From the NCBI RefSeq assembly GCF_900086705.1, contig NZ_LT575483.1:3515533-3579532 (forward strand): a stretch of DNA of 64,000 nt, written 5' to 3'. Positions 12,896 through 49,977 of the stretch are shown piece after piece. This DNA comes from Massilibacillus massiliensis (lineage in GTDB: Bacteria > Bacillota > Negativicutes > FLKF01). A model generated the notes under the pieces. It worked only from the letters and a program-made list of their open reading frames with translations, searched no databases and was not told the origin of the DNA. The stretch's first letter is position 1; the number at the start of each line of letters is the position of its first letter. The position numbers and the translations under genes are program-made.

Positions 12896-13256
12896 GTCTT
12901 TTCAGCTTACTTTGCTGCAAGCAAAATAGCATATTTTATAAAATTAACATGGTTGAAAAATGAAATAAAATGACGAAATATGTAGAAAAATGTAATTCTG
13001 TATTTCAGTGGGACAAATGTATCATTTTTACATAAAAACCATGGAAACTAATGACATATAAAGTCGGAGTATGTTAATATTTTTTTATCGCAGAGTTATA
13101 AAAAATTTATTTAAGTAGTTCTGTTATAGATGCTGAGGTTTTTCATTTAGATTATTTCGCTGATCGATTTACAAATGTAAATACCTTTTTGCATTGTATG
13201 GATCTTCTAAATAGGAAATGCATTTGCGTTTTTTCAAAGGAGGTGAAAAACGAAAA
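12896..13256. other. Intergenic region upstream of the injection-system cluster
   Basis: About 360 AT-rich bases with no gene. As the whole 13-31 kb block runs on one strand with tight spacing, its main promoter most likely lies here, but I see no box strong enough to place. AAAGGAGGTG at 13236-13245 is the ribosome site of the first gene. Confidence 0.4.
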
Positions 13257-14990
13257 TTGCAACAAAGAAAAATTTTAAAAATGCCGACGTTACTTTTTAT
13301 TTTTATTTTTGTGTTAACGTGCTTTTGGGGGAATTTTTCTAGAGGCGCAGCATCGGAAGCCGTAAAACAGCATGAAGTCATCTTCCTCATTGATGTCAGC
13401 AATTCTATGAATACGACTGATGCGGGGAAACTTGTGCCAGACTGTTTAGAAAAGATTTTATATCTATTGCCGGATAACTATGCAGTAGGGCTCGTTGCCT
13501 ACGGTACAGAAGTGCAGTCAATAAATTCGGTGGATCTGAAACGAGAGGCAATTGCTGAAACGCTTCGGCAATTGAGTTATACGGGATATACGAATGCCGG
13601 AGTCGGATTGGAGAAAGCACTGACTTTGTTCAAAGATAGCGAAGCAGAAAAAACGGTAATTTTACTTTCCGATGGTGAAATTATGCTAGATACCCCGGAT
13701 GCAACAAAAGTTTCCGAAATGCAGTTTAGTCAAGCGATGCAAACGGCGGCGCAGCGCGGTATTCGTGTTTTATCCGTCGCAATCGGTGAACAGGGGCGTT
13801 TATCACAGGCGAATATTTACAATGCGAACAACCCTAAAAATGGAGATTTGTTTCACGTTGACACTGTTGCTGAATTACACGATATTGCCAAAACAATCGT
13901 ATATGGGAAATTTGGCATTGCCAAGACATCGGTTAGCAGTAGTGATCTACAAAATGATGCACTCCGTGTACATCTGCCGCTAAAACATATGGAGTATATC
14001 AATAAAGCGAAAATCTCTCTTACCTCCACAGTACCGTTATACAATGTTGGCGCTGATTATACTGCACAGAGCGGTAAAATTGTGAGTGGTAAACAATTTG
14101 CAGTTGTGAATTTATGGCAACCGCAAAGCGAAGCAGTTCAGATTCGTTTTCTAGCTGCGAATGGAGGGAATGTACAGGCTGATCTGATCTTAGAAATGAA
14201 TGCATCTGTTCAAGTTGAGGTGAAAAATACAACACTTGAAGAATCCGGTCAAAAAATAGCTGAAGTTAGATTAGTTCCTGTCAGTACACAAAATCAAAAT
14301 TTACATCTTTTAGATGATCCATATTTTGAGGGAAAATCAGTTCGAGTAACAGCAGATGATCAGGAAATTGCGGCAGTTGTGGAAAATGGATCTATTCGTT
14401 TTTCTCTGTCAGCCGATCAATCGCGTAGTGTAGAGGTCAAAGTGCACTATGAAGATCTCGGTGTCAACATGATTACACCGGAAACAATTTCTGTACAGGT
14501 TAAACAGGCGGAAGGTTATGAAAAATTATGGATTGCTTGTATTGTCATAGCAACTGTTGGGTTGATTTGGTGGAGAATGCGCGAGCCAAAACCGCTGCCC
14601 CCGCCGCCGATCATAAGTCGTTATGAATATGCTGGTAAATTCAAAATTTATATTACACAGACGCCAGATGATAGTGACATTGCACCTATGGAATATAATT
14701 TATACCGTAACTTCCAAAAGGAAGAAATCACGCTGGGGGCAATTCTAGAGCAATGTGGGATTTCCTTTTCCTTGCCTGGTGCATATAAAATCTTCTTTAG
14801 TCCGGGTGCCAATAAAGCACTGGTACTTACCAATAAATCTGACTGCACCATTTTGAAAAATAGGGATTTGTTAGTCAAAGATCATAGCTGTCTCGTCTAC
14901 TTTCATGAAAGAATTCATATTACATTTGAGGACGAACACAGCGAACTTATCTTAGAATATAAAAATGTCAAGCCGTCTGAACGACGCTAA
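13257..14990 (+). CDS. VWA-domain membrane protein of the injection-system cluster
   Basis: A 577-residue exported protein. The N-terminal hydrophobic signal/anchor (about residues 10-28) leads into a von Willebrand A domain at about 40-215. Its MIDAS metal site reads FLIDVSNSMN (D46, S48, S50), with LLSDGEI later. A second predicted transmembrane segment, LWIACIVIATVGLIWW, is at about 424-439, followed by a proline-rich link and a ~130-residue cytoplasmic beta-rich tail. VWA proteins commonly organise envelope complexes with the phosphorylation genes found downstream (FHA, PP2C). I start at TTG 13257, after the strong AGGAGG at 13238-13243 (spacing long at 13 nt); ATG 13218 is possible but lies before that site. 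Confidence 0.8.
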   Translation: MQQRKILKMPTLLFIFIFVLTCFWGNFSRGAASEAVKQHEVIFLIDVSNSMNTTDAGKLVPDCLEKILYLLPDNYAVGLVAYGTEVQSINSVDLKREAIAETLRQLSYTGYTNAGVGLEKALTLFKDSEAEKTVILLSDGEIMLDTPDATKVSEMQFSQAMQTAAQRGIRVLSVAIGEQGRLSQANIYNANNPKNGDLFHVDTVAELHDIAKTIVYGKFGIAKTSVSSSDLQNDALRVHLPLKHMEYINKAKISLTSTVPLYNVGADYTAQSGKIVSGKQFAVVNLWQPQSEAVQIRFLAANGGNVQADLILEMNASVQVEVKNTTLEESGQKIAEVRLVPVSTQNQNLHLLDDPYFEGKSVRVTADDQEIAAVVENGSIRFSLSADQSRSVEVKVHYEDLGVNMITPETISVQVKQAEGYEKLWIACIVIATVGLIWWRMREPKPLPPPPIISRYEYAGKFKIYITQTPDDSDIAPMEYNLYRNFQKEEITLGAILEQCGISFSLPGAYKIFFSPGANKALVLTNKSDCTILKNRDLLVKDHSCLVYFHERIHITFEDEHSELILEYKNVKPSERR

Positions 14991-15010: not shown

Positions 15011-17200
15011 TTGGCCATTATTACGCAAACCAATCGAACTATATTGTTTGAAGAAATCAATCCTGAAAAACTCGACTTGCTCACTATGGTGGGCGATGTA
15101 AAGGAAATGGACAGCTTAAATGACGAGAAAATCAAAGAGATCAATGAACATCTGTTAGTCAGAAATTTTGACGAGTTCCTAGAAAAATTTGATCCTGTGG
15201 TTTACTCCTTTTATAATGCGAATAATCAACGTGTCATGTATACGTTGAAAAAACCTGAAAGTATTCCGGACGAACTGTTAACAGAAATTCATCTTAACAT
15301 GCACAATGATTTTCTTAAGATGTTATTGACATTGGTAGAAACCAAACGCTCACAAGGTCTTTTAAATGTCGATTTCAAATTTGAAAAATTGACCAATTTG
15401 ATTTCGCCGGCCAAAGTTATGGAAGATATTCGTCAGCTTAGAAAAGAAATGCGCTATATTTATTCCGAGTATGCGCAGCTTGATGATGGTGATCCAAAAA
15501 AACTTGATGTGGGCGACAAACTGAATGTCATGTTTGAAGAAGCCAGCACGAATTACAACAACGTTATGGCTATGCTTCCACTGGCGATTGAAGATATTAA
15601 GACACGGCTGTTACTAGGTGCCGGCGGTGACGGTGCAAATGATACACCGCTTACGCTTGGGGTATTGTCCATGGGGGAAGAAGGCGAACTCAAAATACTA
15701 GAAGCGCCAAAACCGGAAACAAAGGCATTGGCAACGCTGGACGATCAGATCAATGGAGGCCTCATTACAGCAATTGAAGAAGATTATGAAGCATTGAACG
15801 AAGAAAATCACAACAATTATGTAAAAGCACTCGTTGCTCGGACCTTTTGTCCATTGCCGTCCACAATGGTATCAACTGTTGATGCCGCAAAAGAAATTGC
15901 AAACTACAATTCCTACTTGGAATTTTATAAAACCGCTAAAGATGATTTTATTAAAACTGTAAAACCTTTGATTGAAAAAGTACTGGGGGTCAGGATGTTC
16001 TTCGAACAATATCCGACAAAACTTAAAGGCATGCGTCCATCCTTGCTCATTAGCAACGCGAGCAATGACATGGTAGCAAAAACATCAAATGTTCCACGTC
16101 TGACCACGTATTTAAATACAGTCAATGCGAAAAATGATTTCAATAACACCTTATGGTACGCGATCTTCCCATCCGTATCGCTTGATCAAAATTCAAAAAT
16201 GAAATTAACGCGCGAACGGTTTAAAGGAAATCAAATCGTCGAAAATCTAAACGTCAACAGCGTAGAATCATTAGCACGCATTCTCGATGTGATGAAAGAT
16301 TATCGTGTACAATGCTTCTTTAGCTATGAGACTGGCGACAAAACGACCTTTAATTATATGGCGACTGAAGGAATCGACAAATTTGTTGAACGTTGTGCGA
16401 GTCTGACAGGTAAAACGTACAGTGAATTTGCCATCCCATGTATTCCGAATTTCACCATCGTACCAAAAGATAAATCTGGTGTCATTCTCGATAAAAAGAT
16501 GTTCTTAAACGATGCGAATCTGGCGGAACTTTCTGACGCGAAAGAAGATATCATGAAGCTATGGATAGATGGTGTTTACATTGGGGCAGCTTTTGTTGCA
16601 GCAGGTCTGTGCGCTGCGATGCAATGTCCGGAATACCTCAAAAAAACCTTTAAGCGTAATGTTGACAGCGAATTGCCGGGTGTGCGTTTTGATATCGAAG
16701 CCGATGATCATCCGCTTCGTGTGCGGACATCGCTGGCAAAGGAAATTACCGGATTTACAAACAGCATTAAAGACGATATCAATCGTAAAAGCTTCGGCTT
16801 CGTGTTTTCCTCTGAAAACGCTGCCTTCGATGGCATGAATATTACGGATATCATGGTATATAAAGCGCGCAACCTTCTTTATGATGCGGAGCTTGGTGTT
16901 TACGAACCAATTTTTAAGACACAGGTTACGACTTATATCGAACGTATTCTGCGTCATGCTACCGGTGATTTCAAACAAGATAATATTGTAAAATTCTTTT
17001 CCAATAATCCGCAGAGTCAAAAAAGCCTATGGGTTGGGAAACGCGATAAAATCAACTCAATTATCAGTGAAGGCGATGATATTAGTTACATCATTGACGA
17101 AATTAACGGCATCTGTACGCTGGATATCACCTTTAACGGCAATGTGAAAAATCTTGAAATTGAGATCAACCGTTTGACTTCAGCAGGACACAGCGCATAA
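15011..17200 (+). CDS. Probable contractile sheath protein (TssC-like, single large subunit)
   Basis: A 729-residue soluble protein starting at TTG 15011 (AAGGAG 14995-15000). I do not recognise a close named family. Several things suggest a sheath subunit. It is followed directly by a small Hcp-like tube gene, as tssC is by hcp. Its N-terminal part (LISPAKVMEDIRQLRKEMRY) resembles the TssB/TssC helical start. The middle has LWYAIFPSV, SLARILDVMKDYRVQCFF and EFAIPCIPNFTIVP, typical sheath-like strand/helix alternation. The C-terminal part (ARNLLYDAELGVY, VTTYIERILRHATGDF) resembles the TssC region before the handshake strand. If right, one protein does the work of both TssB and TssC. The role is inferred from context, so confidence in function is moderate. 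Confidence 0.55.
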   Translation: MAIITQTNRTILFEEINPEKLDLLTMVGDVKEMDSLNDEKIKEINEHLLVRNFDEFLEKFDPVVYSFYNANNQRVMYTLKKPESIPDELLTEIHLNMHNDFLKMLLTLVETKRSQGLLNVDFKFEKLTNLISPAKVMEDIRQLRKEMRYIYSEYAQLDDGDPKKLDVGDKLNVMFEEASTNYNNVMAMLPLAIEDIKTRLLLGAGGDGANDTPLTLGVLSMGEEGELKILEAPKPETKALATLDDQINGGLITAIEEDYEALNEENHNNYVKALVARTFCPLPSTMVSTVDAAKEIANYNSYLEFYKTAKDDFIKTVKPLIEKVLGVRMFFEQYPTKLKGMRPSLLISNASNDMVAKTSNVPRLTTYLNTVNAKNDFNNTLWYAIFPSVSLDQNSKMKLTRERFKGNQIVENLNVNSVESLARILDVMKDYRVQCFFSYETGDKTTFNYMATEGIDKFVERCASLTGKTYSEFAIPCIPNFTIVPKDKSGVILDKKMFLNDANLAELSDAKEDIMKLWIDGVYIGAAFVAAGLCAAMQCPEYLKKTFKRNVDSELPGVRFDIEADDHPLRVRTSLAKEITGFTNSIKDDINRKSFGFVFSSENAAFDGMNITDIMVYKARNLLYDAELGVYEPIFKTQVTTYIERILRHATGDFKQDNIVKFFSNNPQSQKSLWVGKRDKINSIISEGDDISYIIDEINGICTLDITFNGNVKNLEIEINRLTSAGHSA

Positions 17201-17295
17201 AATGCGAACCCTATGCCGACGTGAATAGATTTGTTTTTTAGCAGAGCCAATTGGCGTCGGTAAATTTACATATACAACAAAAGGGAGGAATTCAT

Positions 17296-17727
17296 ATGGG
17301 TTTCAGATTAAAGGTCACTGGTGGACCGGAGGATATTGCATTTGACGAAAGAGCAATCTTAAAAGCAGAATTTTTTTCCGACTCACCAAATGATTCCAAT
17401 GCAAGAGCGACTGATGTAGCGCTCAGCATCAAAGTTTGGGGGAAAATGCTCTACTCTCTCGGCGGTAAAGAAGCCGATGCTACTCTCAACGTGGCAAAAT
17501 GGTCGCAGGTACCGAGTGAAAAAGCGGACTGCTACAGAAATGTACAGCTTGACATTGTCGCTGCCAGCCAAATGGTGCGGCAGTATACACTATCAGATGC
17601 CTTCGTAATGGAATACACAGAAGAACTAGACGACGAAACTGGCGTTGGTACGTTCTATCTTCACATGAAACAGAAAAAAGACCAAAATGCTATGGTCAAA
17701 CTCGAAGGTGGCTTTGGGGCTGAGTAA
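17296..17727 (+). CDS. Hcp-like tube protein, copy 1
   Basis: A 143-residue beta-rich protein beginning MGFRLKVTGG. It shares its plan with the proteins at 19692 and 39804: an N-terminal strand, a SNARATDV-type turn, a W-x-x-VP-x-EKADCYR segment, and a C-terminal AFVMEYTEELDDETGVGTF ... MRQKKD-like end. Size, all-beta character and position after the probable sheath gene fit an Hcp/gp19-type inner tube. ATG 17296 is preceded by GGGAGG (17283-17288), so the longer frame from 17251 is rejected. Three copies suggest either different tubes or Hcp-delivered effectors. Confidence 0.6.
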   Translation: MGFRLKVTGGPEDIAFDERAILKAEFFSDSPNDSNARATDVALSIKVWGKMLYSLGGKEADATLNVAKWSQVPSEKADCYRNVQLDIVAASQMVRQYTLSDAFVMEYTEELDDETGVGTFYLHMKQKKDQNAMVKLEGGFGAE

Positions 17728-17732: not shown

Positions 17733-18155
17733 ATGGTCAATCGCATGAAACAGGTCTTGTCAAAATACCACTGGCTGTGGAATGCAGCAATTGTGCTGGT
17801 CGTATCTGTGCTAGTATTTTATTTCGACCCGGTCGGCAGAGCCTATGAAGCAAGTGATTTCCGCAAGGATGGCGGCCTAAAATGGATTGCGATTATCGTT
17901 TCCATCGTTACGATGATGTCGACGATCTTCTCTTTACGGCATTATTGGAAATGGGTCATTGTGGCACCGTTTTTTGTTGGGACGGCCAATCACCTGCATA
18001 GTATTTTTATTCGTTTTGCAGGAGCGTACCCCGAGTATACACCAATGATGCATGTGGAAGGGATTATTCTCAACGATTTGATCTATGTAATTTTTGCACT
18101 GCCAACCACAGCCTTGGTACTGTTTATTCGAACAAGGAACCAAGAGAGGAAGTAA
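17733..18155 (+). CDS. Small membrane protein, tandem copy 1 (possible immunity protein)
   Basis: A 140-residue protein with about four hydrophobic segments (WLWNAAIVLVVSVLVFYF; IAIIVSIVTMMSTIFSL; the middle segment around VIVAPFFVGTA; DLIYVIFALPTTALVLF). It is five bases after the Hcp-like gene and is nearly identical in its first two-thirds to the third copy at 18655. No named family was recognised. Three copies before a probable cell-wall-acting enzyme suggest membrane immunity proteins or holin/anchor-like partners; this is inference. Confidence 0.6.
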   Translation: MVNRMKQVLSKYHWLWNAAIVLVVSVLVFYFDPVGRAYEASDFRKDGGLKWIAIIVSIVTMMSTIFSLRHYWKWVIVAPFFVGTANHLHSIFIRFAGAYPEYTPMMHVEGIILNDLIYVIFALPTTALVLFIRTRNQERK

Positions 18156-18163
18156 CAAATGAT

Positions 18164-18583
18164 ATGAAAAAAGTCTCAGTTGCTTACCAATATCTGTGGA
18201 ATACGACGATTGTGTTGACCATGTCTGTGTTAGTGTTTTACTTCGACCCAGTCTGGAATGCGTATCAAATTACACATACCGGAAAAGATGGTGGCATCTT
18301 ATCGATACTGGTTGTTGTTTCTATTGTAACGATGATCGCTATGTGTATATCGCTGCGAAATTATTGGAAATGGGTGGCTGGGGCAACGTTTTGTGTAACC
18401 TTTTCTAGTTTTTTGAATGTTTATAGCAGACAGTATGAAAATATAGATAGAATCGTCCCATATACATATCAAACATACATTTGGGAAAGTACTGCAAATG
18501 GTTTTGTATATGTAGTTTTCACACTGCCAGTTGCAGCATGGGTGTTATTTAGCCGGAAAAGGAAAAATAACGAGAATTATTGA
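18164..18583 (+). CDS. Small membrane protein, tandem copy 2
   Basis: A 139-residue paralogue of its two neighbours with the same hydrophobic layout, but the most diverged copy: it keeps LWN-TIVL-MSVLVFYFDPVW and YWKWV. It starts at ATG 18164, nine bases after the previous stop. Divergence of the middle copy while the outer two stay alike suggests that copy 1 and copy 3 arose from a more recent duplication or are kept alike by gene conversion. Confidence 0.6.
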   Translation: MKKVSVAYQYLWNTTIVLTMSVLVFYFDPVWNAYQITHTGKDGGILSILVVVSIVTMIAMCISLRNYWKWVAGATFCVTFSSFLNVYSRQYENIDRIVPYTYQTYIWESTANGFVYVVFTLPVAAWVLFSRKRKNNENY

Positions 18584-18654
18584 CGATGAATCAAATGTTG
18601 TCTCTGATTGCATGAATTTTATTGCCTAAACTAAAAGCAAAATGGGGCGATACG

Positions 18655-19077
18655 ATGAGAAGATTTTTCGAAAACAATCACTGGCTGTGGAATGCAGCGA
18701 TTGTTCTGGTGGTATCTGTGTTGGTATTTTATTTCGACCCAGTCGGCAGAGCCTATGAAGCAAGTGATTTCCGCAAGGATGGCGGACTAAAATGGATTGC
18801 GATTATCGTCTCCATAGTTACGATGATGTCAACGATTTTCTCTTTACGGCATTATTGGAAATGGGTCATTGTGGCACCATTTTTTGTTGGGACGGCCAAT
18901 CAACTGCATAGCACGTTTATTCGTTTTGCAGGAAGTTATCAAAATTATACGCCTATGATGCATCTGAGAGAAATAATTCTCAACGATTTGATCTATGTAA
19001 TTTTTGCACTGCCAACCACGGCCTTGGTGCTGTTTATCCGAAAGAAGAAACAGAAAGGATGTGACAACAATGTGTGA
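18655..19077 (+). CDS. Small membrane protein, tandem copy 3
   Basis: A 140-residue paralogue, almost identical to copy 1 at DNA level across most of its length (compare 17745-18130 with 18668-19050). I start at ATG 18655; the in-frame upstream start at 18622 has no ribosome site. Its end overlaps the ATG of the enzyme gene at 19070 by eight bases, which suggests coupled expression of enzyme and partner. Confidence 0.6.
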   Translation: MRRFFENNHWLWNAAIVLVVSVLVFYFDPVGRAYEASDFRKDGGLKWIAIIVSIVTMMSTIFSLRHYWKWVIVAPFFVGTANQLHSTFIRFAGSYQNYTPMMHLREIILNDLIYVIFALPTTALVLFIRKKKQKGCDNNV

Positions 19078-19609
19078 AAGTCGGTTTACTTTGACCGTAT
19101 ACATTGCACCACCATTTACCAGCGAGTCAAATGTAGGGCATATGTGGATTAGCTTGGATGATAACGAGGAAGGTCTAAAAGAGCATTATGGGTTTCATCC
19201 CAAAGAAGATGGAAAGGCTTATTCAGATGTCGGCAGAGTTGCAACGGATGATGGAATAAAATACACGATCCTTTCTACCCGGCAATCATTTCCGCTTACG
19301 GAAGAAACCTATCACAACGTACATGCATATTGCCAGTCTACAATATATGGAACCTTTGGTCCATACCTTGCCGTTGGCAATGCTTGTGTAAATTACGCAT
19401 GGGATATTATGCAGGCAGCTGGTATTGGCAATGAGGGGCTTAATGCACTTGGCTTTGTGATTGAAACTGATGACCCTAGAGGGGCTGTCTGGCCAACATT
19501 CAATCAAAAAAAGCTTAACATGGTTCATGATTATTATATGGCAGAATGGAATGGGGAAGATCCCCAAACCGTAGGTGAATTCATCATGGATAAAATGAAG
19601 GTTTGGTAA
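19070..19609 (+). CDS. Possible papain-like (NlpC/P60-type, permuted) hydrolase; candidate effector
   Basis: A 179-residue protein starting at ATG 19070 (GAAAGGA 13-7 nt upstream). The family was not recognised with certainty. H24 in NVGHMWISL lies in a strand-like context, and C106 in GNACVNYAWDIMQAAG begins a helix. That His-then-Cys order is the arrangement of permuted NlpC/P60 (YiiX-like) papain-fold enzymes, which cut peptides, amides or acyl groups. It lies between two Hcp-like genes and after three tandem membrane proteins, exactly where a tube-delivered effector and its immunity genes would be. It has no signal peptide, as expected for an injected effector. Catalysis is an inference from two residues and context. 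Confidence 0.45.
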   Translation: MCESRFTLTVYIAPPFTSESNVGHMWISLDDNEEGLKEHYGFHPKEDGKAYSDVGRVATDDGIKYTILSTRQSFPLTEETYHNVHAYCQSTIYGTFGPYLAVGNACVNYAWDIMQAAGIGNEGLNALGFVIETDDPRGAVWPTFNQKKLNMVHDYYMAEWNGEDPQTVGEFIMDKMKVW

Positions 19610-19691: not shown

Positions 19692-20117
19692 ATGGCGTTT
19701 CGTATCAAAATTGAAGGACAAGAACCATTTGACATTCCGCCGGAATGTACAAAAAGCGTAAGCTTTACGACAGAAATTCCACTTGATTCCAATGCGCGCA
19801 CTAAGGATGTGGGAACAGGCTTGGTGATCACTGGGAAAATCCTCGCCGCTACGGATGGCGACCCGGATGACAGTACGCGCAAGATGGCTTTGTGGTCAGT
19901 CGTACCGGCAGAAAAAGCAGATTGCTATCGCAAAATTACGATTGAGTTGACGGCAGCAGGCATTATTGAACGGAAATACCATTTTCCAAATGCATTTGTC
20001 GTAGACTATAAAGAAGAATATGGCGATGTGAATGGTACAGGCACCTTTACGCTGGTTCTCCGGCAGAAGAAAGATAAATTCGCAAATGTTACCGTAGAAG
20101 GCGGATACCCTGCCTAA
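19692..20117 (+). CDS. Hcp-like tube protein, copy 2
   Basis: A 141-residue protein of the same family as 17296, with AAGGAGG at 19675-19681 and ATG 19692. It carries the shared SNARTKDVG turn, the WSVVPAEKADCYRKI segment and a C-terminal FVVDYKEEYGDVNGTGTFTL. It differs enough from copy 1 to be an independent gene. The next gene follows after 70 bases. Confidence 0.6.
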   Translation: MAFRIKIEGQEPFDIPPECTKSVSFTTEIPLDSNARTKDVGTGLVITGKILAATDGDPDDSTRKMALWSVVPAEKADCYRKITIELTAAGIIERKYHFPNAFVVDYKEEYGDVNGTGTFTLVLRQKKDKFANVTVEGGYPA

Positions 20118-20187: not shown

Positions 20188-20637
20188 ATGGATTTTAATC
20201 CTTATGCAATACTGGGAGTGTCAAAGGACGCTGGCGAAGAAGAAATTAAAAAGGCGTATCGGAAGCTTGCAAAAAAATATCACCCGGACGTCAATCGAGA
20301 TAATCCGGTAGCGGAGCAAAAATTTAAAGATGTTGGCGAAGCCTATCGGATTTTAAGTGACAAACAGGCGCGCCGATCCTATGATACGGCAGCGCAAAAA
20401 ACAGCGAAAACAGCATCGAAAGAGCCACGGCGGCAGTCTTTCGAGACAAATGACGCGTTTGACATTGCCAATATGGCACAGGGAATGCAGGGGAATTTTG
20501 AACGTTACTTTGGTTTTGATCCTCAGACCGGCAAGGTTACAAGAGAAGAAAAATTAAATGTAAATGCGAAAAAAAAGAAAAATCCGCTTGATACCACCGC
20601 TATGTTTGACAGTTTCTTTTCCAGTTTTAAAAAGTAA
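20188..20637 (+). CDS. J-domain (DnaJ-like) co-chaperone
   Basis: A 149-residue protein. Residues 1-65 are a J domain ([27 protein letters not shown] with the HPD tripeptide, AYRILSD). The rest is a polar link with a lysine-rich end and lacks the zinc-finger and C-terminal domains of DnaJ. It probably stimulates the Hsp70-like ATPase encoded at 24738, a pairing otherwise unexpected in a secretion cluster. Its role may be assembly or recycling of the sheath or loading of effectors; both are inference. Confidence 0.85.
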
Positions 20638-20649: not shown

Positions 20650-21198
20650 ATGAATAAGAAAAAAAATATTGATTTGGCAATTGCCGGACTGTGCGGATTG
20701 ATCCTTTTGATTGCTTTGTACGGTCTGGAAGATGCCATGAGTGGAGTATATATCGCTGTTTGCGCCGGCAGTGCTCTGATTGTATTCTTGGCTTTTTATT
20801 TGACGTCCGCGTCTAAAGAATGGAATGTAGCAGAGCATCTGCCAATTGCAGGGGGCGGCATTATTACAGAATTGGTGCTCCTCAATGAAGAAGAGAATCC
20901 AATTGCCGCCTGGGATATGTTTGAGAAAACGGCGCTCGTTATCGGTAAAGACGTCAAGGAAAATCACGTAGATGTCAATCTAAATCAAAGTGTTTATGCT
21001 TCGATGATCGATATCGAACATGCTGTTTTAAATTATGCTGACAACCATTGGTATATCGAAGACTTAGGTTCAAAAAATGGTGTGATACTGCAAAAAAATG
21101 CTGACGGACGAAAATACAAACTTTCCGCTGATCAGCCGTGCAAGCTCGATTCAGGTGATATGATCATCATCGGGTTGACAAAGCTGTTAGCAAAGTAA
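20650..21198 (+). CDS. Membrane-anchored FHA-domain protein 1
   Basis: A 182-residue protein. Two hydrophobic segments near the N-terminus (about 8-25 and 30-52) anchor it. The C-terminal half (about 90-180) is an FHA domain, with SMIDIEHAVLNY, YIEDLGSKNGVIL and GDMIIIG in the order expected of a phosphothreonine-binding fold. The key Arg of the first loop seems replaced (VIGKDVKEN), so phosphopeptide binding may be altered. FHA proteins in type VI systems assemble the machine in response to Thr phosphorylation (Fha1/TagH). It follows the J-domain gene by 12 bases. Confidence 0.75.
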   Translation: MNKKKNIDLAIAGLCGLILLIALYGLEDAMSGVYIAVCAGSALIVFLAFYLTSASKEWNVAEHLPIAGGGIITELVLLNEEENPIAAWDMFEKTALVIGKDVKENHVDVNLNQSVYASMIDIEHAVLNYADNHWYIEDLGSKNGVILQKNADGRKYKLSADQPCKLDSGDMIIIGLTKLLAK

Positions 21199-21294
21199 AA
21201 AAACAATTACAAAATTTTTGTAGGCACTAAACTGCAATTGAAATCGCATGAAAATTTATGATTTAAATAAAAGATTAGAGAAAGAAGGCATCAT

Positions 21295-21843
21295 ATGAGC
21301 AATTTAATTCGCTGTCAAAATGGACATATGTTTAGTTCTAGGCGTTACGGAACGGTTTGTCCGTACTGCAATATTGAAACAGCTACTAAAGAAAAAAAAG
21401 AAACCGGACTTACGGATGTTGATGTGGAAGAAATGCTGTTTTTAGAAGATGTGCAGCCGGTGTGTGGCTGGATCGTATGTATATCAGGACCTAGACAAGG
21501 TAAGGATTACAAAATTAAAACAGGAAAAAACTTTATTGGGCGTGCCGACGATATGGATATCCAAATTCTCGGTGACAATAAAATCTCACGCCGCAATCAT
21601 GGCATCATTGTTTTCGATCCTAAGAAGAAAGAAACTGTTCTATTACCGGGGGAATCAAACGGTATCGTCTATCATCAAGGTGACGCTGTTTATATGCCGA
21701 AAGTTTTAAATACCTATGATGTCATTGAACTGGGAGACAGTAAATTTCTCTTCATTCCATTCTGTGGAGATCAGTTTAATTGGGAAGATGTGAAAAAACC
21801 GAAAGGCGATGCACAGAGTGGTGCGGCGGGAGCAGAATCATGA
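21295..21843 (+). CDS. Zinc-ribbon FHA-domain protein 2
   Basis: A 182-residue cytoplasmic protein. The N-terminus has a zinc-ribbon-like knuckle (RCQNGHMF ... CPYCNIET). Residues about 60-165 are a canonical FHA domain, with FIGRADDMDIQI, ISRRNHGII and ESNGIVYH. The key Arg and Ser/Arg/Asn residues are present, so it probably binds phosphothreonine. Its stop overlaps the PP2C start by four bases (ATGA at 21840). This couples reader and eraser of the phosphorylation signal; no kinase is encoded in the window. Confidence 0.8.
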   Translation: MSNLIRCQNGHMFSSRRYGTVCPYCNIETATKEKKETGLTDVDVEEMLFLEDVQPVCGWIVCISGPRQGKDYKIKTGKNFIGRADDMDIQILGDNKISRRNHGIIVFDPKKKETVLLPGESNGIVYHQGDAVYMPKVLNTYDVIELGDSKFLFIPFCGDQFNWEDVKKPKGDAQSGAAGAES

Positions 21844-22655
21844 CACAAATACCGGGTATTCTTATCCTCGTACTAACGCTTCTTGTCTTTGCCTTGCTCA
21901 TAAAAAGAATGTGTGCTTCATCTGCAAAGACTGTTAGGATAGGAAAATGTATGACCATCGGTGATCGTGAAGTGCAAGAAGACAATTACGCCGTTTGGGA
22001 AAATAGTGCAGGATCACTGCTGGTACTAGCCGATGGTATGGGCAGAAAGTATGGTGGTAAAATTGCCGGACGCATTGCCGTAGAAACCTTCGTTGATTTA
22101 TTTAAAGAGTATAAAGCATTTGAAAAACCACACTATTACTTTCGCAAAGCCTTCCATGCGGCGAATCGAGCCATATTAAACAAGGTCGAAGACGGACGTG
22201 GCTCGGCGAGTGTTGCCGCAGTGCTGATTACTGACCATACGCTTTACTATGCGCTTGTCGGTAATATTAAAATTGCGGTCTATCATGGTGATGATCTTGT
22301 ACCGGTCAGTGAAGGGCATACCATTGACGTGCTAGCCAGACAAAAATATGTGCAGGGAAGTTTAGCAAAAGAAAGTGCAATTGCGCTTTTAGACCGACAC
22401 CGATTATATAATTTTGTCGGACAAGATGGTTTTAAAGATATAGAATTTTTCAGCCAGCCGCTGCCGCTTCGTTCAGGCGATGCTGTTGTTCTCATGAGTG
22501 ATGGCGTTTACGAAACACTGATTTGGCGTGAAATAGAGCAAGAACTCGCACAAGGACGAGATGCGCAGGCGCAGGCTTTACAAATAATCGAACGAGTGAA
22601 CCGCAGTAAATTTCAAGGCAAAGACAATGCCAGCATTATGATTTATAAAGAGTAG
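21840..22655 (+). CDS. PP2C-type Ser/Thr phosphatase (PppA/Stp-like), membrane-anchored
   Basis: A 271-residue protein. One N-terminal transmembrane segment (about residues 5-22) is followed by a PP2C domain. The metal-binding motifs are present: QEDNYAV, LADGMGRKYGG, MSDGVYE and the closing KDNASIMI. In the threonine-phosphorylation pathway of type VI systems, PppA dephosphorylates FHA-bound targets and resets the machine; that role is transferred here by analogy. Start and coupling to the FHA gene are fixed by the ATGA overlap. Confidence 0.85.
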   Translation: MTQIPGILILVLTLLVFALLIKRMCASSAKTVRIGKCMTIGDREVQEDNYAVWENSAGSLLVLADGMGRKYGGKIAGRIAVETFVDLFKEYKAFEKPHYYFRKAFHAANRAILNKVEDGRGSASVAAVLITDHTLYYALVGNIKIAVYHGDDLVPVSEGHTIDVLARQKYVQGSLAKESAIALLDRHRLYNFVGQDGFKDIEFFSQPLPLRSGDAVVLMSDGVYETLIWREIEQELAQGRDAQAQALQIIERVNRSKFQGKDNASIMIYKE

Positions 22656-22682
22656 CAGCCAGCAGCTCTACAGGGGGATTTT

Positions 22683-24668
22683 ATGAAAAAGCTAAACAGT
22701 GAATTAAAAGCTGCATTTATATCGGAAGCCGGGGCAGCACTTACGAACAATGACTACTTCGCTTTTGTCGAGCTCGACGATTATGCTTGTTACGTCATTG
22801 CGGATGGGCTTACGGATTTAGAACGATCAGAAAGTGCCCAAAAAGCGGTGGAAAGTGTTATCTTGCATTTTCAAGAACGGCCGTCGATATCCGGGCGCGT
22901 TTTAGGCTCCTATTTGGTGAAAGCCAATCGTGATCTTTTGCAGACGAATGGACGTGAAGCACTCAAGGCTTCGGTGACTGTGATTGTTACGGACTATGAA
23001 TCCGTACGCTATGCTGTTGCCGGTAATACACGTTTCCGCCTGTATCGGGACGGCATGCTCAGTGCAAAATCAAAAGATATGTCTTTAGCCCAAGATCTAG
23101 TCGAAAAAAACGAAATTACACCCAATGTCCTGTCCAGGCATGAAGAAAGACATAATCTTTATACCTATCTCGGGCAGGAAAAAGATTTTAAGCCTTACGT
23201 ATCCGGTAAACAAAAATTGATGAATGGCGATATCGCTGTTCTATACACACGTGGTATATGGGAAAACCTTGAGGAAGCGGATCTCGACGATATATTTTCT
23301 GAGACGACGGATGATCCGCAGGAACCATTGGATAATACAGAAGATATGCTGCTGTCCAAACAGCTGCCGGCTCTTGATAATTATACGATGGCAGTTGTCT
23401 TCATCAATAAAGTTTTCATTGATCCAAATCGTGATCGACGACGGAAACGCAGGATCAAAATTGCCATCATTGTTTGTATTGTTCTTCTTATCATTGGGGT
23501 GATTGCCTATGTTCTTTATAGCCGTCACAAAGATAAAGTCGATGAGATGAATCTTAGGATGGATAGTGCGATTGCTTGTATGCAGGACAATAACTATATT
23601 CGGGCTCGTGACGAAGTGCAAAAAGCGCTGCAACCGGCTGAAAAACTCAAAGACAAAGAAAAAATCGAGCAGCTTAATAACTACCTGCGATTGATAGAGA
23701 GTGTTATCGCCGCTGATGATGCCTATCAGAATCAGAAATTCGAAGATGCTTACCAAGGCTATCAAACCGCGCTGGAGAGATCGCGTTATGCAGATAAACT
23801 TGGTGAGAAATATATTCAAAGACGGCTTGCAAATACCGAAGACAATATGACAGTTGCAGACTTTATTAATCTAGGTGACAAAGCTATGGAACAGGGCGAG
23901 CTTGGACAAGCGGAAGTGTATTATTTGCGGGCAAAAGCCTTTGCTGCTAAAATCCATTCCGCTGACGGTAAAGTGCAGGCACAAGTTGCGATTGACAAAT
24001 TGTATGATGCAAAACAGAAACAAAAAGATGAACAGGAAAAGAAAGATAAACAACGCTTGAGTGATGACATTAGCGATCTGATTACCCAGGGGGATGCATT
24101 ATCACAATACGGTGATTTAGATTTGGCGGAACAAAAATATCTGTCGGCCCGTGCTCTGGCAGCTGCCCATTATGATGCAGATGGTAAAAAAGAAGCACTG
24201 GGAGCTCTTGAAAAACTTGGTCAAGCGAGAGGAAAAGCAGCACAAGCAGCGCAAAAAGAAGCAAATCAATACGCCTCGGACTATATGAGTGCGGCTGCAC
24301 TTGTCGGACAAGGCGATGCGGCATTTTCTCAGGCGGACTATACAGGTGCTGCGGCTAGTTATAACGCTGCATTATCTCAATACACCGCACTTGGTGATAC
24401 AGCGCAAAGTTCGATTCTTAGCGGTAAACTGCAAAGCGTAGCTGCCAAGCAGCAGGAGATCGATCAGCAGAAAATCAATGCCGTGCAAACGGAAGCACAG
24501 GCGAGTGCGCTCTATGCTTCCAAAGAGTATAGTGCAGCGAAACAGATGTACCGCCAAGCGCAGCAGCTCTATTTGGCGCTTGGTAATCAGACGAAAGCAG
24601 ATGAAATTGCAATTATGCTTGACAGAATTGATGCGGATGCCGCGATTATGGCGAATCTGCCGCAGTAA
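22683..24668 (+). CDS. Degenerate PP2C domain - transmembrane - TPR protein
   Basis: A 661-residue protein. Residues 1-245 are PP2C-like (NNDYFAFVELD, VIADGLTD, LDNYTMAVVFI), but the metal-binding SDG of the third motif is replaced by LYTRGIWENL. It is therefore likely a pseudophosphatase or strongly altered. A basic stop-transfer patch and a transmembrane helix follow at about 258-280. The outer part (290-655) is alpha-helical, rich in Ala/Gln/Lys, and reads as TPR-like repeats and coiled coils (AAASYNAALSQYTALGD; AAKQMYRQAQQLYLALGN). This could be an envelope-spanning scaffold sensing phosphorylation inside and binding partners outside, perhaps replacing TssL/TssM; that is inference. Confidence 0.7.
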   Translation: MKKLNSELKAAFISEAGAALTNNDYFAFVELDDYACYVIADGLTDLERSESAQKAVESVILHFQERPSISGRVLGSYLVKANRDLLQTNGREALKASVTVIVTDYESVRYAVAGNTRFRLYRDGMLSAKSKDMSLAQDLVEKNEITPNVLSRHEERHNLYTYLGQEKDFKPYVSGKQKLMNGDIAVLYTRGIWENLEEADLDDIFSETTDDPQEPLDNTEDMLLSKQLPALDNYTMAVVFINKVFIDPNRDRRRKRRIKIAIIVCIVLLIIGVIAYVLYSRHKDKVDEMNLRMDSAIACMQDNNYIRARDEVQKALQPAEKLKDKEKIEQLNNYLRLIESVIAADDAYQNQKFEDAYQGYQTALERSRYADKLGEKYIQRRLANTEDNMTVADFINLGDKAMEQGELGQAEVYYLRAKAFAAKIHSADGKVQAQVAIDKLYDAKQKQKDEQEKKDKQRLSDDISDLITQGDALSQYGDLDLAEQKYLSARALAAAHYDADGKKEALGALEKLGQARGKAAQAAQKEANQYASDYMSAAALVGQGDAAFSQADYTGAAASYNAALSQYTALGDTAQSSILSGKLQSVAAKQQEIDQQKINAVQTEAQASALYASKEYSAAKQMYRQAQQLYLALGNQTKADEIAIMLDRIDADAAIMANLPQ

Positions 24669-24737
24669 GCAACGTCAGTGCTTGGACAGAAACAAAGGTT
24701 CTCGTCCAAGTCTGTCGTCCGATGGAGGCGATACTTT

Positions 24738-27377
24738 ATGGATAAATACAGTTATACCTTGAATATTGATGGTAATGCGGTCAAAAGAAAGCAAAACCGC
24801 TATTATAAACGTGACCTGGAACTTATGACGGGGCACCAGCTCAGAGAAATATGCAGACGGGAAAAGATCATCCATGGGGTTGTAAGTCCGCTTGACAAAG
24901 ATGACTTGATTCGTGTCATTCTCAGATACCGTGGTGCAGATGAGAATCTTTTAATTAAAACCTATAATGAAAAAGGTTATGCGGCTTTACAAAATGTGAT
25001 TTCTAAAGTACAGATCCATTATGAAACCGATATCCGCCCCGATTGCAGTGCCAAAATTGTCGTTTATGAAGGGTTATCGCTCGATTACTACGACGAACTG
25101 ACAATTAAATATCATGCCAAGCTAGCTGGGACCAATGCGCTGATCGTAAGCGCGGATAACACTTTGTGCGGCATTTTAAATGTTGAAACCAAAGGCAGCA
25201 GCAAAGATTCTTTATATTTAACTAAAGCATCTAGACTGCCCTGCAGCGAAGCACAAATCAAAAATTACAGTCTGCTGTGTATGGACAAGGCAAATTCTGA
25301 GATGCTGCAGCGTATTTACAGCGGCGATTACGCTTATATGCCACAACATTTGATTGTATATCGCGTGCCGCTTTTAGATTTTATGGTGAGAAAACCGGTA
25401 GCGCTTACCATGCCCATTGCGATAGATTTTGGTACTACGAGCACGACAGCCGGTGTATATCTGGATAGTCTGTACTTTGAGCGCACTGATATGGAGCCGG
25501 GACAGCTTGGTCTGTTAGAAAACGATGTAAATTATGCAGTGTTTTACGATAGCATCCAGGATTATCATGAAACCACGCTCTTACCGAGCGTAGTTGGTGT
25601 CCTTTCCATTCACGGTGGGGCAGACCCGGAATACCTATTTGGCTATGATGCTGTAAAACTAGCCAATTCCAGTTATATCGATGAAGGGTTTTGTGTGTTT
25701 TATGATATCAAGCGGTGGATCGGTGATTATGAAAAAAGTGAGGAAATTATCGATAAACAAGGGCGACGTGCTTTTGTCAAACGAAAAGATATCCTAAAAG
25801 CCTACTTTCGGCATATCGTCGAAGCGATGAAAAATCGTTTCAAATGCGATATTCAGGCTGTACATATTTCCAGTCCTGTCAAACAAAAGTATTTGTTTCA
25901 AGCGCTCTTTTCTGAAATCCTGCCTGAATATACCGTCGAAAAAGAAGATATGCTCGATGAAGGAATTGCCGTACTTTACAATACGATTTCTGAAATGATT
26001 TCGCAAAAAAGTGCGCAGGAAAATACAACTTACAGAGCACTGGTCATTGATTGCGGCGGCGGAACTACTGACTTATCCTCCTGTAGTTTTCGTGTCAGTA
26101 CCCAGCGGGTTGCTTATAAAATCGACATTGAGACTGCTTACGAAAACGGGGATACCGACTTTGGCGGCAACAACCTGACCTTCCGGATTATGCAGCTTTT
26201 AAAAATCCGTCTCTATAAAGCATTGGCCCCGAAAGAATGGCAGTCAGGCAGTCCGGACATCAATGATCTATTGAATACATTCGATCTGGATGTATTCCGC
26301 TATGTAGACGAGTATGGGGCGAAGAAGCTTTATCAGCAATTTGATACCGCGTACGCTGAAGCAGAGGCATTCTTGCCAACAAAATTCCGTGATTGGGAAA
26401 AGCTTAGCCGCAGTGATTACTACAAGGTGAAAAATAATTTTTATTTTCTGTTTCACACAGCCGAACGCATAAAAAAAGAATTCTACAATAAAGTCGGCAC
26501 ACTGCGTGTTGGTCTATCGTGTAATGATCGCATAGATTCGGCGGCTACCATGCTCTTTGTGGATAAATGGAAATTGACTGCGATGCAAGGCAGAGATCTT
26601 GTAACCGTGAAAGATTTCCCTGAAGTATATTTCAGTATATTTGATATTATGCTGATCCTGCGGGCCGACATTTATGGTGTCATCCATAAATTTATGGATG
26701 AGATGTATGGCAGCCATGAGCTGGATGAATATACCATGATTAAATTGACCGGACAATCCTGTAAGATTGATATCTTTCGTGATGCATTAAAGGAATTTGT
26801 CCCGGGAAAGACCATCAAATTTAAACGAAAATCCGGCGATCTTACAGATGATTTTGAACTTAAAATGACTTGTATCGATGGTGCTTTAAAATATCTGAAA
26901 GACAAAAAATATGGGTTTGCCGACGTCAAAATTACCAGCCGCACGCCGGCATTGCCGTATATCATTACTGCGTATACGCATACAGGGCAGGAAATTGTGC
27001 TCATCCATGGTTTGCAAAAAGGGAAAAGCGGCGGACATATCTCCCGCAATATGGATGACTTGACGTTAAAGCTCTATCTCAAAGATATGAATGAAAAAGT
27101 CCGTTACAACTTCACGTATGCTTGTACATTAGGCGAATTTCAGGCAATGGAGTATGAAAAAATAGCCGAGCTCTATGAGGTTGATATTCCACAGGATGAT
27201 GTCGACAGTATCGTTGACCGTGAAGTGAAATTTTTTGCCTGGACCGAACCACGTCGGTGGGGATTTCTCGTTTTACCGATTTATCGTGACGGAGAAATTC
27301 TGATGCTGGGACGCTTACAGTTCTTTAGTTTCGAAAGCGATGCTTGGGTAGAAAATTTCTTTGACGGAACCAAATGA
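24738..27377 (+). CDS. Hsp70/actin-fold ATPase with SAP-like N-terminus
   Basis: An 879-residue protein. I start at ATG 24738 (GGAGGCG 15-9 nt upstream). A small SAP-like helix-extension-helix (LMTGHQLREICRREKI ... DLIRVILRY) is at about 30-65. An actin/Hsp70-fold ATPase begins near 225, with phosphate-1 loop IAIDFGTTSTT at 227-237 and phosphate-2 loop VIDCGGGTTDLSS at about 436-448. The rest is unlike the DnaK substrate-binding domain. Together with the J-domain protein at 20188 it forms a dedicated chaperone pair. ClpV is missing, so a role in sheath recycling or assembly is a tempting but unproved idea. Confidence 0.7.
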   Translation: MDKYSYTLNIDGNAVKRKQNRYYKRDLELMTGHQLREICRREKIIHGVVSPLDKDDLIRVILRYRGADENLLIKTYNEKGYAALQNVISKVQIHYETDIRPDCSAKIVVYEGLSLDYYDELTIKYHAKLAGTNALIVSADNTLCGILNVETKGSSKDSLYLTKASRLPCSEAQIKNYSLLCMDKANSEMLQRIYSGDYAYMPQHLIVYRVPLLDFMVRKPVALTMPIAIDFGTTSTTAGVYLDSLYFERTDMEPGQLGLLENDVNYAVFYDSIQDYHETTLLPSVVGVLSIHGGADPEYLFGYDAVKLANSSYIDEGFCVFYDIKRWIGDYEKSEEIIDKQGRRAFVKRKDILKAYFRHIVEAMKNRFKCDIQAVHISSPVKQKYLFQALFSEILPEYTVEKEDMLDEGIAVLYNTISEMISQKSAQENTTYRALVIDCGGGTTDLSSCSFRVSTQRVAYKIDIETAYENGDTDFGGNNLTFRIMQLLKIRLYKALAPKEWQSGSPDINDLLNTFDLDVFRYVDEYGAKKLYQQFDTAYAEAEAFLPTKFRDWEKLSRSDYYKVKNNFYFLFHTAERIKKEFYNKVGTLRVGLSCNDRIDSAATMLFVDKWKLTAMQGRDLVTVKDFPEVYFSIFDIMLILRADIYGVIHKFMDEMYGSHELDEYTMIKLTGQSCKIDIFRDALKEFVPGKTIKFKRKSGDLTDDFELKMTCIDGALKYLKDKKYGFADVKITSRTPALPYIITAYTHTGQEIVLIHGLQKGKSGGHISRNMDDLTLKLYLKDMNEKVRYNFTYACTLGEFQAMEYEKIAELYEVDIPQDDVDSIVDREVKFFAWTEPRRWGFLVLPIYRDGEILMLGRLQFFSFESDAWVENFFDGTK

Positions 27378-28566: not shown

Positions 28567-29856
28567 ATGCGCATATTTGATGAAGAATTTGATATGAAAA
28601 CTTATGTGAAAAATCGGTTGCTGCAAATGGACAACCTTGAAAGCCGCCGCGTTTTCAAAGCCGTCGTCGAAGACCTGTTCCTCGAACTGCACGGCGAAAT
28701 TGAAGCACAATATAAAGGCTTGGAACAGCGCGTGTTCGAAGAAGTGCCGATGCCGATTGAAGGGCCGGCTATTGTAACGAATATCATGGATCGTAATCTT
28801 TATGATGTTACCGATGAGTTTTTGCTGCCGATGCGACTCGAAGATCTGCAGCCTACACAGATTGATACGGAGGCTATGTGCAAAAGTCTTAGTGAAAAGT
28901 CACCGTATTTTCTCTATACCGTTTTTCTGCAGGCGGATTATCTGGAAACAGAAAAATTTGCTGCGCCTGAAAGAAGTTTTCGTGGTGTCGTTAAAACGCA
29001 GCATAGCGAATACAATGCGCAGTTTCATGTTCGACGAAACCTAACCTACAGACAACAGGTTGAGGATTTATATAGAATATTTGGACTCAATTATTTGCCC
29101 TGGCGCAGTGTTTGTGCACCCTATCTCTATAAACTTTTTGATGTTTATATTGATGAGATTGAAAACTGGAATGACGAGGACAGCATAGAAGAAGCCATCC
29201 TTGATTTTGAAGAATATACCTCCGTAATTCGTTATCAGCAGGTGCCATTATGGAACTTGGAAACGGTGTCGATGCGTACAAGTACATATCCGGAACCGTG
29301 CGTTGACAAAATCAATTACGAACATCGGATTTTTCGTCATAAATTTAAAGAAGGGGCGCGATATCTGGTTACCAACCCCGATGTTGCGATTTCCAACATA
29401 CGTTGGACGCAAGGTGATCTCTTAATCACCTGTCCACTAGAAGATCCGATGAACTGGACGATGTATAAGTGCAACCCTTTGCGTAAAGCTACCTATCCAA
29501 ATCGGACGTTACACAACACGAATCAAGCATCCTTTGCCAATACGCTTATGGGGGTATTTGGTAAGACGATCAAGACGAAATTGGAATTGAATCGATTGAT
29601 TCAAGCCTGCGGTTACGAAAATGATTTGACGTTTATCGGTGTAGAACTCATCAAGAATTTCCCGGGAAAAGAAACCTATATCGTAGATGGATTCATAAAG
29701 GACGAATTGCGAACCGGTACCTGGGAAACAGCGATGCGGCTGGATTTTCAGCCTGCTGACTATGATTTTTATCTGAACCGGGACATCATGAGTTTTCTCG
29801 TCAGTGTGGTGCAACGGCAGTTTCCTGAATATGAATGCTGCGGTCGGCTAGTGTAA
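28567..29856 (+). CDS. Probable baseplate protein, paralogue 1
   Basis: A 429-residue soluble protein with AGAGG before ATG 28567. A second copy of the family is at 40456 (both share the start KNRLLQMDNLESRRVFKAV / RDRILSTNNLEMRRIVKEV, the YRIFGLNYLPWRSV / YRLFQFNNIKWRTV block and the end VVQRQFPEYECCGRL / ELQYRYPEYRWIGEL). No characterised family was recognised; similar proteins are sometimes misnamed in databases. Position between the Sel1 gene and other small soluble proteins, and duplication beside VgrG modules, suggest a wedge component such as TssF/gp6. This is inference from context. Confidence 0.5.
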   Translation: MRIFDEEFDMKTYVKNRLLQMDNLESRRVFKAVVEDLFLELHGEIEAQYKGLEQRVFEEVPMPIEGPAIVTNIMDRNLYDVTDEFLLPMRLEDLQPTQIDTEAMCKSLSEKSPYFLYTVFLQADYLETEKFAAPERSFRGVVKTQHSEYNAQFHVRRNLTYRQQVEDLYRIFGLNYLPWRSVCAPYLYKLFDVYIDEIENWNDEDSIEEAILDFEEYTSVIRYQQVPLWNLETVSMRTSTYPEPCVDKINYEHRIFRHKFKEGARYLVTNPDVAISNIRWTQGDLLITCPLEDPMNWTMYKCNPLRKATYPNRTLHNTNQASFANTLMGVFGKTIKTKLELNRLIQACGYENDLTFIGVELIKNFPGKETYIVDGFIKDELRTGTWETAMRLDFQPADYDFYLNRDIMSFLVSVVQRQFPEYECCGRLV

Positions 29857-29868: not shown

Positions 29869-30579
29869 ATGAATTTTATATGGGATATTGTTTTGCAGGC
29901 CGAGGCACAAGGCGTAGATAAGGCGGAACTCATATTTCAACAGGCACAAGAGTACAGCCCATATTGCGAACAGGCCTTTTCCTGCATCAATCAAGCGGGC
30001 TTGGACAACAAGTTTGTCGAGCTCAATGCACTCTATCGATTTAGTCATATCTTTCAAGAACTTTTGCATCCGGAATTCTTAGAGCAGGAAGAAAACCAGG
30101 AACTTGCGCAGTGTGCTGCCAGCTTTTTTGACGTTATCGTACATCTTTTGAGCGAAGTTGATCTAAAGCATGGACTTACGAAAAGAGAATATTTTATTCG
30201 GCAATTGCGGGCTGAACTTCTAGATGGTGTGTATGGTGCTAAAGCGGCTGCTGCAGTCGCGATCATGCATCGAAATCTACAATTTTGTTTGTCAAATGAA
30301 CTGTTAACCCAGATGCAGACAGGCACGAGCCTGCGGGTTTTTCGCCGTGCGGTACGAACTGCATTTACCGGCAGCCTGATTTATCAGAATAATTACAACG
30401 ATAAAGAACTGCTCCTGTATTTAGGCGAAAAAGAAACCGGCGATAACGAAAAAATTATGCAATTCTTGCTGGATATGTTTTTACCCTTTGGGTTTTCAGC
30501 GCGGTTGTTTTGGGAATATCATTTCGGCATTCTTGGCGTAGACGCCGCTATGCAGGCGGATGCCATCGCGTTATTTTAG
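29869..30579 (+). CDS. Unknown soluble protein, probable baseplate component
   Basis: A 236-residue, mostly helical protein that I do not recognise (it includes LFWEYHFGILGVDAAMQ near its end). It starts 12 bases after the previous gene with AAGGAGAGG, and is single-copy in the window. Its place between two probable baseplate genes makes a TssG/gp53-like wedge role possible, but no sequence motif proves it. Confidence 0.45.
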   Translation: MNFIWDIVLQAEAQGVDKAELIFQQAQEYSPYCEQAFSCINQAGLDNKFVELNALYRFSHIFQELLHPEFLEQEENQELAQCAASFFDVIVHLLSEVDLKHGLTKREYFIRQLRAELLDGVYGAKAAAAVAIMHRNLQFCLSNELLTQMQTGTSLRVFRRAVRTAFTGSLIYQNNYNDKELLLYLGEKETGDNEKIMQFLLDMFLPFGFSARLFWEYHFGILGVDAAMQADAIALF

Positions 30580-30610
30580 TACGGATAAGAAAGAAAGGAA
30601 GCAAAACTTT

Positions 30611-31761: not shown

Positions 31762-31886
31762 TAAAAGTAGAAGTAAGCAAGAGGAGAAATCTGAGCGGCG
31801 GGAATATATTTCCCAATTTCTAGATAGTTTTATCTACATTTCACTCAAATAAAATTAGTAGAATGTAAAAGAGGAGAGATTTGATT

Positions 31887-39248: not shown

Positions 39249-39590
39249 ATGACAAATGATGAACAAGGACAAAGTTACGTGGTTGACGGTGCCAGTATTG
39301 AGTGTAGCGCGGGGAGCATGGCAGGTAGGCTCAGTTTCTCACAATCCCATCAATGTGATATCAATGGAAAAGCCGTATTAAATATTAAAGATAGCCAGTC
39401 TATGGTCAATATCGGCAGTATGGGGAAGTGTAAAAACAAAAAAAATGCCCCTTGCGTACCCGCGCTCAGCGGAGAGTGGCAATGCGGTAAAGACGGCGTA
39501 GATATTGACAATACTCCGGCGCTTCTCAACACCTCTATTATTCCTTGTGGTAACGGCGGCGTTATTAAAATTGTAGCTGATGGACAATAA
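39249..39590 (+). CDS. DUF4280 PAAR-like spike-tip protein 1
   Basis: A 113-residue protein with AAAAAGGAGCG before ATG 39249. YVVDGASIECSAG, the Cys-containing NIGSMGKCKNKKNAPCVPAL and the C-terminal DIDNTPALLNTSIIPCGNGGVIKI are the DUF4280 signature. That family is a PAAR-like, zinc-binding sharpened tip that sits on VgrG trimers; the paired cysteines fit metal binding. It is one of two in the window. Confidence 0.85.
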   Translation: MTNDEQGQSYVVDGASIECSAGSMAGRLSFSQSHQCDINGKAVLNIKDSQSMVNIGSMGKCKNKKNAPCVPALSGEWQCGKDGVDIDNTPALLNTSIIPCGNGGVIKIVADGQ

Positions 39591-46490: not shown

Positions 46491-46533
46491 CCAAACGAAT
46501 GAACTAACCCCAAAACGGAAAGGGGAAAATAAA

Positions 46534-49956: not shown

Positions 49957-49977
49957 CATGCTTTTAAACGAATGAAA

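Follow-up and report, generated by a model that had tools for sequence, protein, structure and literature searches.

Contact-dependent injectors of the type VI secretion system (T6SS) kind have been described as a Gram-negative trait. T6SS are divided into subtypes i to iv (PMC10433429), and for the Negativicutes a genome-wide survey of 2016 (TXSScan) listed only type IV and type V secretion systems (PMC4793230). A 2021 survey of PAAR proteins found VgrG proteins with a Phage_GPD domain beside DUF4280 PAAR proteins in Firmicutes, from which an "unknown phage-like translocation system" was inferred, with no conserved genes of T6SS or extracellular contractile injection systems (eCIS) found near that pairing (PMC8651086). 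The DNA analysed here, a 64,000-nucleotide stretch of the Massilibacillus massiliensis genome (assembly GCF_900086705.1, contig NZ_LT575483.1, positions 3,515,533 to 3,579,532 of the forward strand; hereafter the window), has the same pairing in the same phylum but differs from the surveyed loci in that a sheath, a tube and a baseplate candidate can be named in the cluster. The sheath candidate, a protein of 729 amino acids (aa) encoded at 15011-17200 on the plus strand, probably belongs to that translocation system. It is a conserved gene product with a sheath fold and a TssB-specific N-terminus, and its neighbours are tube, hub, spike, toxin and immunity genes. With a probability of roughly 0.87, we consider it to be the subunit that builds the contractile sheath in a type VI-like injection system that is native to Bacillota and has TssB and TssC combined in one polypeptide.

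The open reading frame (ORF) is intact over 729 codons and begins with TTG, some 10 nt 3′ of a ribosome-binding site of the AAAGGAG type, while a promoter and terminator scan gave signals at chance level only. It is a real gene and not a chance frame, because relatives are encoded in many other genomes: in 13 of 398 Bacillota genomes of an evenly drawn sample, in 52 of 380 Negativicutes genomes by profile search, and in 256 candidate stretches across GTDB genomes. Full-length relatives (58-91% identity, 91% for the homologue of the environmental strain Pelosinus fermentans JBW45) are present in Pelosinus, Selenomonas, Roseburia, Lachnoanaerobaculum, Anaerotruncus, Clostridium and Erysipelotrichaceae, and the profile search of Negativicutes added a divergent branch at 22-26% identity. 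The sheath is a single chain in 48 of 48 aligned family members, those of the divergent branch included, and none of them has the two separate sheath subunits that are a feature of T6SS. Single and profile searches by sequence matched the protein to nothing in Pfam, NCBIfam, PHROGs, PADLOC or the PDB, and the family has no members in the phage (50,697 phages), plasmid and viral-contig collections. The sheath can serve as a marker, missing from the current Pfam, NCBIfam and PHROG models, for finding the system in gut Roseburia, Lachnoanaerobaculum and Selenomonas; its range includes gut Lachnospiraceae, where such an injector had merely been guessed at. A tandem pair of divergent sheath genes was seen within a single cluster (L122:2992-7531), typical and divergent types coexist in several rumen Selenomonadaceae genomes, and the sheath gene of Lachnoanaerobaculum orale (L086:9937-12157) is split by an in-frame stop into open frames of 333 and 408 aa.

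An AlphaFold2 model of the 729-aa protein, built from the 48-sequence alignment, had a predicted local distance difference test (pLDDT) score of 81.2 and a predicted template modelling (pTM) score of 0.83, with residues 203-247 as the main poorly modelled stretch (pLDDT < 50). The model has a contractile-sheath fold in which the N- and C-terminal parts together form the sheath core, so the outcome that a first-pass annotation of this DNA had named as refuting its own reading, a fold unrelated to sheaths, gave way to a confident sheath model. Foldseek against the PDB returned only two matches at E<1e-3, both of them TssC (VipB 5myu_A, 3.0e-4; Azotobacter vinelandii 9n4v_A, 4.3e-4), and after re-ranking of Foldseek's structural candidates with VIA-align the top 44 PDB entries were all contractile sheaths (Z 22.2-13.5), the next, unrelated entry having a Z of 7.4. 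TssC chains aligned to the model over residues ~287-712 only (starts 287-318; Z 16.5-19.5), whereas the single-chain sheaths of phages, the antifeeding prophage (AFP), the Photorhabdus virulence cassette (PVC), pyocin and the Streptomyces contractile injection system (CIS) spanned residues 1-711, indicating that the first ~285 residues supply the share of TssB. A structural search of BFVD gave one significant match, which carries no name.

The protein was compared with a TssB profile made from 11 plasmid-borne T6SS loci by tiling the 729-aa family in 70-residue segments, each with 100 column shuffles. The segments 1-70, 36-105, 71-140 and 106-175 scored above 100 of 100 shuffles and the remaining 16 did not. 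Two matches, collinear with TssB and confined to residues 35-147, account for the signal: residues 35-64 (15113-15202; VRNFDEFLEKFDPVVY) against TssB 55-80 (VDNFDARLRSMKPRVA), and residues 115-147 (15353-15451; NVDFKFEKLTNLISPAKV) against TssB 91-123 (PVDLTFEQMDDFSPAAV), the gap between them being ~40 residues longer than in TssB itself. The limits of an earlier segment comparison to TssB had been picked after the first alignment was inspected, and therefore the unbiased tiling is the result to rely on. Bacillota single-chain phage sheaths carried through the same tiling against TssB, with 60 shuffles, lacked a comparable signal. The suggestion that one 729-residue protein combines TssB and TssC is thus supported by the collinear TssB matches, by TssC covering only the remaining ~430 residues and by the negative phage-sheath control. 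The confinement of the TssB matches supports a division into a TssB-like stretch of ~200 N-terminal residues and a TssC-like remainder, with a TssB (VipA)-like part at residues 1-202 (15011-15616), a joint at residues 203-247 (15617-15751) and a TssC (VipB)-like part at residues 248-729 (15752-17197). The joint, which coincides with the poorly modelled stretch, is variable in length across the family and retains a short conserved hairpin (G217, L219, G225). Lengths are in keeping with the first-pass description of a protein much longer than TssC, since ten TssC proteins measured 489-515 aa and TssB and TssC together 666-680 aa, to which the insertion of ~40 aa brings the sum close to 729.

A number of results weigh against this reading. 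The individual TssB matches are modest (hhalign probability 1-15%, E 0.0017-0.036), and 14 tiled segments of the C-terminal part gave no convincing profile-profile match to TssC. The two lowest shuffle counts in that comparison (1/60 and 3/60) were discarded as a 21-column match to the extreme C-terminus of TssC that is misplaced in the protein. The TssC sequence signature (PF05943 or a profile match) was likewise not found in the family, and therefore the C-terminal half is TssC-like by fold only, which upholds the TssC-like end proposed at first pass as regards structure (TssC chains, Foldseek) and not as regards sequence profiles. The best Z values belong to phage and eCIS sheaths, a Z in the sheath range not being specific to T6SS. 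The genome has no match to TssE/gp25 (PF04965) or to TssM/IcmF of the TssJLM membrane complex (PF06761), nine relatives carrying the family have none to TssK/VasE (PF05936), and no ClpV was seen among the ORFs of the cluster, no genome-wide search for it having been made. Expression, polymerisation and contraction of the 729-aa protein are predictions from genes and model.

The protein is therefore similar to T6SS TssB and TssC in its TssB motifs, in the TssC fold of residues ~287-712, and in adjoining an Hcp-like gene with VgrG and PAAR-like genes linked to it, but unlike them it is one chain with an insertion between the TssB motifs. The Hcp (weak), VgrG and PAAR-like DUF4280 trio of the canonical T6SS is present in the window. 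We did not assign the system to the canonical T6SS, because its sheath subunits are not separate and searches gave no TssC sequence signature, IcmF or gp25. The gene cluster looks complete and occurs widely in Firmicutes, Lachnospiraceae of the human gut among them. Somewhat more likely than not, it represents a separate class of CIS, native to Bacillota and shared by monoderm commensals of the gut and diderm Negativicutes, with a one-chain TssB-TssC sheath, no TssJLM, a J-domain and Hsp70-like pair in place of ClpV and a large antibacterial toxin arsenal. No account of this sheath or its cluster turned up when the literature was searched for fusions of TssB with TssC and for injection systems of Bacillota; preprints and most subscription journals lay outside that search, so a prior description is possible.

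The structural ranking also bears on a different origin for the protein, as a phage- or eCIS-type single-chain sheath, for example from a domesticated prophage tail, with no special kinship to TssB or TssC. Such sheaths (cyanophage A-1(L), Streptomyces CIS, AFP, PVC and pyocin R2) gave the top Z values (18-22) over residues 1-711, one chain forms the whole core with both termini in its conserved part, and a single chain is the usual state in phages and eCIS. We regard this origin as unlikely, given that the TssB signal is missing from Bacillota phage sheaths and that neither significant Foldseek match is to a phage or eCIS sheath. The 729-aa protein did not match Phage_sheath_1 at E<1, nor is this family among the matches listed for the 48 members, and no family member was found in the 50,697 phages or in viral contigs. 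The genome lacks gp25, and the sheath gene has FHA, PP2C, vWA and DnaJ neighbours unlike those of phage and eCIS sheaths, of which the FHA and PP2C proteins are reminiscent of T6SS regulation. Sheath-like proteins can also be accessory, as in Leisingera aquaemixtae, where a 1205-aa TssB::TssC protein (WP_311199422.1; L187:6232-9849) likewise holds both regions in one polypeptide, but as a truncated, accessory version next to a canonical tssB-tssC pair, with long acidic repeats and with a TssC match lacking the C-terminal ~125 residues. TssB::TssC fusion as a gene architecture is consequently not unique, and the Leisingera protein has no similarity to the 729-aa family. It offers a precedent for a sheath-like protein that serves a secretion cluster without contracting or as an accessory (as scaffold, shield or decoy). 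For the 729-aa protein we consider such a role very improbable: the window has no other sheath gene, no canonical VipB was matched in the genome, and synteny with tube and hub genes is strict in both subfamilies. The statement that there is only one sheath candidate applies to the window and to canonical VipB; the genome has two phage-type sheaths (PF04984; 463 and 364 aa) located elsewhere. Among 398 Bacillota genomes none gave a VipB match, while 13 of 398 drawn in the same manner carry the 729-aa family.

Within the reading of a combined TssB-TssC sheath, and with the same mechanism, there is a sub-question of descent, namely whether the lineage diverged before TssB and TssC split, so that the protein is an unsplit, ancestor-like form and not a secondary fusion. 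Outside T6SS a single-chain sheath is the rule, the family diverges deeply in sequence from TssC, and every aligned member is one chain even at 22-26% identity; the low-confidence, length-variable joint resembles instead a linker between once separate chains, although this is weak evidence either way. We hold the unsplit form to be a real possibility, somewhat short of even odds. A one-chain TssB-TssC protein also bears on the question whether the two-part T6SS sheath originated when a single chain was split.

By analogy with the known families, from which the handshake, contraction, phospho-regulation and chaperone roles are inferred, a single 729-aa chain would stand in for each TssB/TssC heterodimer of the sheath helix. 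Neighbouring subunits would be joined by a handshake, in which the first strand of the model (residues 9-12 by DSSP) is expected to act as the N-terminal arm and the C-terminal strands (residues 701-718; 17111-17164) to complete the sheet. With an Hcp tube at its core, the sheath would polymerise on a baseplate; on contracting, it would push the tube into an adjacent cell together with the VgrG/DUF4280 spike and its attached toxins. The FHA and PP2C proteins probably regulate firing, gating it through phosphorylation. The J-domain and Hsp70-like proteins may take the place of ClpV in assembly or recycling, and their recycling role is the weakest step in the scheme.

The injector genes around the sheath, all on the plus strand, follow an order that is largely shared among relatives. 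Typical clusters run vWA, sheath, Hcp, Hcp, DnaJ, FHA, FHA, PP2C, PP2C, 429-aa, 236-aa, Hsp70-like, 275-aa, 213-aa and VgrG, with PAAR-like and VgrG-toxin genes after VgrG; in the window and in Pelosinus fermentans JBW45, the nearest relative of this 4.0-Mb genome among those searched, the Hsp70-like gene is placed before the 429-aa gene, unlike the typical order. The divergent branch has a smaller core, in the order sheath, Hcp, VgrG, TssF-like (the 429-aa relative) and 236-aa relative; close by are Hsp70-like genes and toxin genes of the DUF4280 type. In the window, a membrane-anchored vWA protein (13218-14990; Pfam VWA 4.5e-14), also placed by its synteny with typical clusters, precedes the sheath. 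As the first-pass annotation had it, the sheath lies upstream of Hcp-like genes. The first (17251-17727) starts 51 bases 3′ of the sheath ORF and belongs to the same family as the second (19692-20117; Pfam TssD E=0.0038, short of the curated threshold) by iterated profile search, and a third lies at 39783-40235 (TssD E=0.01, sub-threshold). The Hcp-like proteins had no match to T6SS Hcp in hhalign, and their weaker assignment as putative tube proteins draws on the sub-threshold TssD matches, family membership and position.

A J-domain protein (DnaJ; 20188-20637) is recognised by a library match and by conservation in the cluster, followed by two FHA-domain proteins (starting at 20650 and 21295; 20650-21843) and two PP2C-type phosphatase proteins (21780-24668), the second with a transmembrane helix and repeats, all four identified by domain matches. 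One genome, G335, also has a protein kinase gene next to vWA, and therefore the kinase, phosphatase and FHA parts of T6SS-type regulation are all present there. The Hsp70/actin-like (ASKHA) ATPase-like protein (24678-27377) has the motifs AIDFGTT and VIDCGGGTTD, a weak match to a ParM-like phrog (2.2e-4) and the expected synteny. VgrG-like hub/spike proteins are encoded at 31881-33338 (Phage_GPD 7e-6, Phage_base_V 5.7e-4; hhalign to T6SS VgrG 98.4%) and 42799-44700 (Phage_GPD 3.5e-6), and a PAAR-like DUF4280 spike tip at 39249-39590 (DUF4280 3.5e-23).

The best candidate for a baseplate wedge is the 429-aa protein (28567-29856), whose AlphaFold2 model (pLDDT 89) had as its best structural match chain 6n38_I of the T6SS TssK-TssF-TssG complex, which from its length we take to be TssF (Z 8.0, borderline; 315 residues). 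Foldseek alone gave no significant match for this protein, and therefore the TssF-like fold is a lead and not an identification. Two conserved proteins of 236 and 275 aa (29869-31387) are possible baseplate parts by synteny only, and none of the 236-, 275- and 429-aa proteins matched profiles of TssA, TssE, TssF, TssG, TssK or TssL. Another paralogue of the 429-aa protein lies at 40456-41754, 5′ of the gene for the second VgrG. Each VgrG island thus seems to have a copy of its own, which would be unusual for a structural wedge and would fit an adaptor. A second VgrG island of the same genome (L155, C6, ~1.784 Mb) has a 429-aa paralogue, VgrG, amidase-type genes (duplicates encoding Amidase_6/peptidoglycan-binding proteins, accompanied by small partners that are membrane proteins or exported), and pentapeptide-repeat and 169-aa adaptor-like genes.

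Genes for toxins and immunity proteins follow the VgrG and PAAR-like genes and include AHH, HNH, NucA/NucB, YwqJ-type deaminase, lipase and SUFU-type immunity genes, a cargo that points to an antibacterial weapon. At 46122-48795 a DUF4280 PAAR-like protein (4.6e-29) is followed by a VgrG (Phage_GPD 3.2e-12) with a C-terminal AHH nuclease toxin (2.8e-4), this AHH match, in the gene at 46474, and the HNH match being just under the Pfam cut-offs. The region 46474-62859 is a polymorphic toxin cassette reservoir, in which displaced toxin C-termini (HNH, AHH, NucA/NucB, YwqJ deaminase) form an array after the VgrG::AHH nuclease and share an N-terminal MTAEDW segment, along with duplicated SUFU and ankyrin immunity genes. 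Between the first two Hcp-like genes (17733-19609) are three paralogous membrane proteins of 139-151 aa and a 201-aa protein with GHMWISL and NACVNYAWDIM motifs, which probably represent an effector linked to Hcp and three copies of its immunity gene; in JBW45 (L014) there is one copy. Directly 3′ of a class 3 lipase gene, two near-alike tandem genes (34278-37393) encode membrane-anchored WD40-repeat proteins, possibly a duplicated immunity function for a lipase effector.
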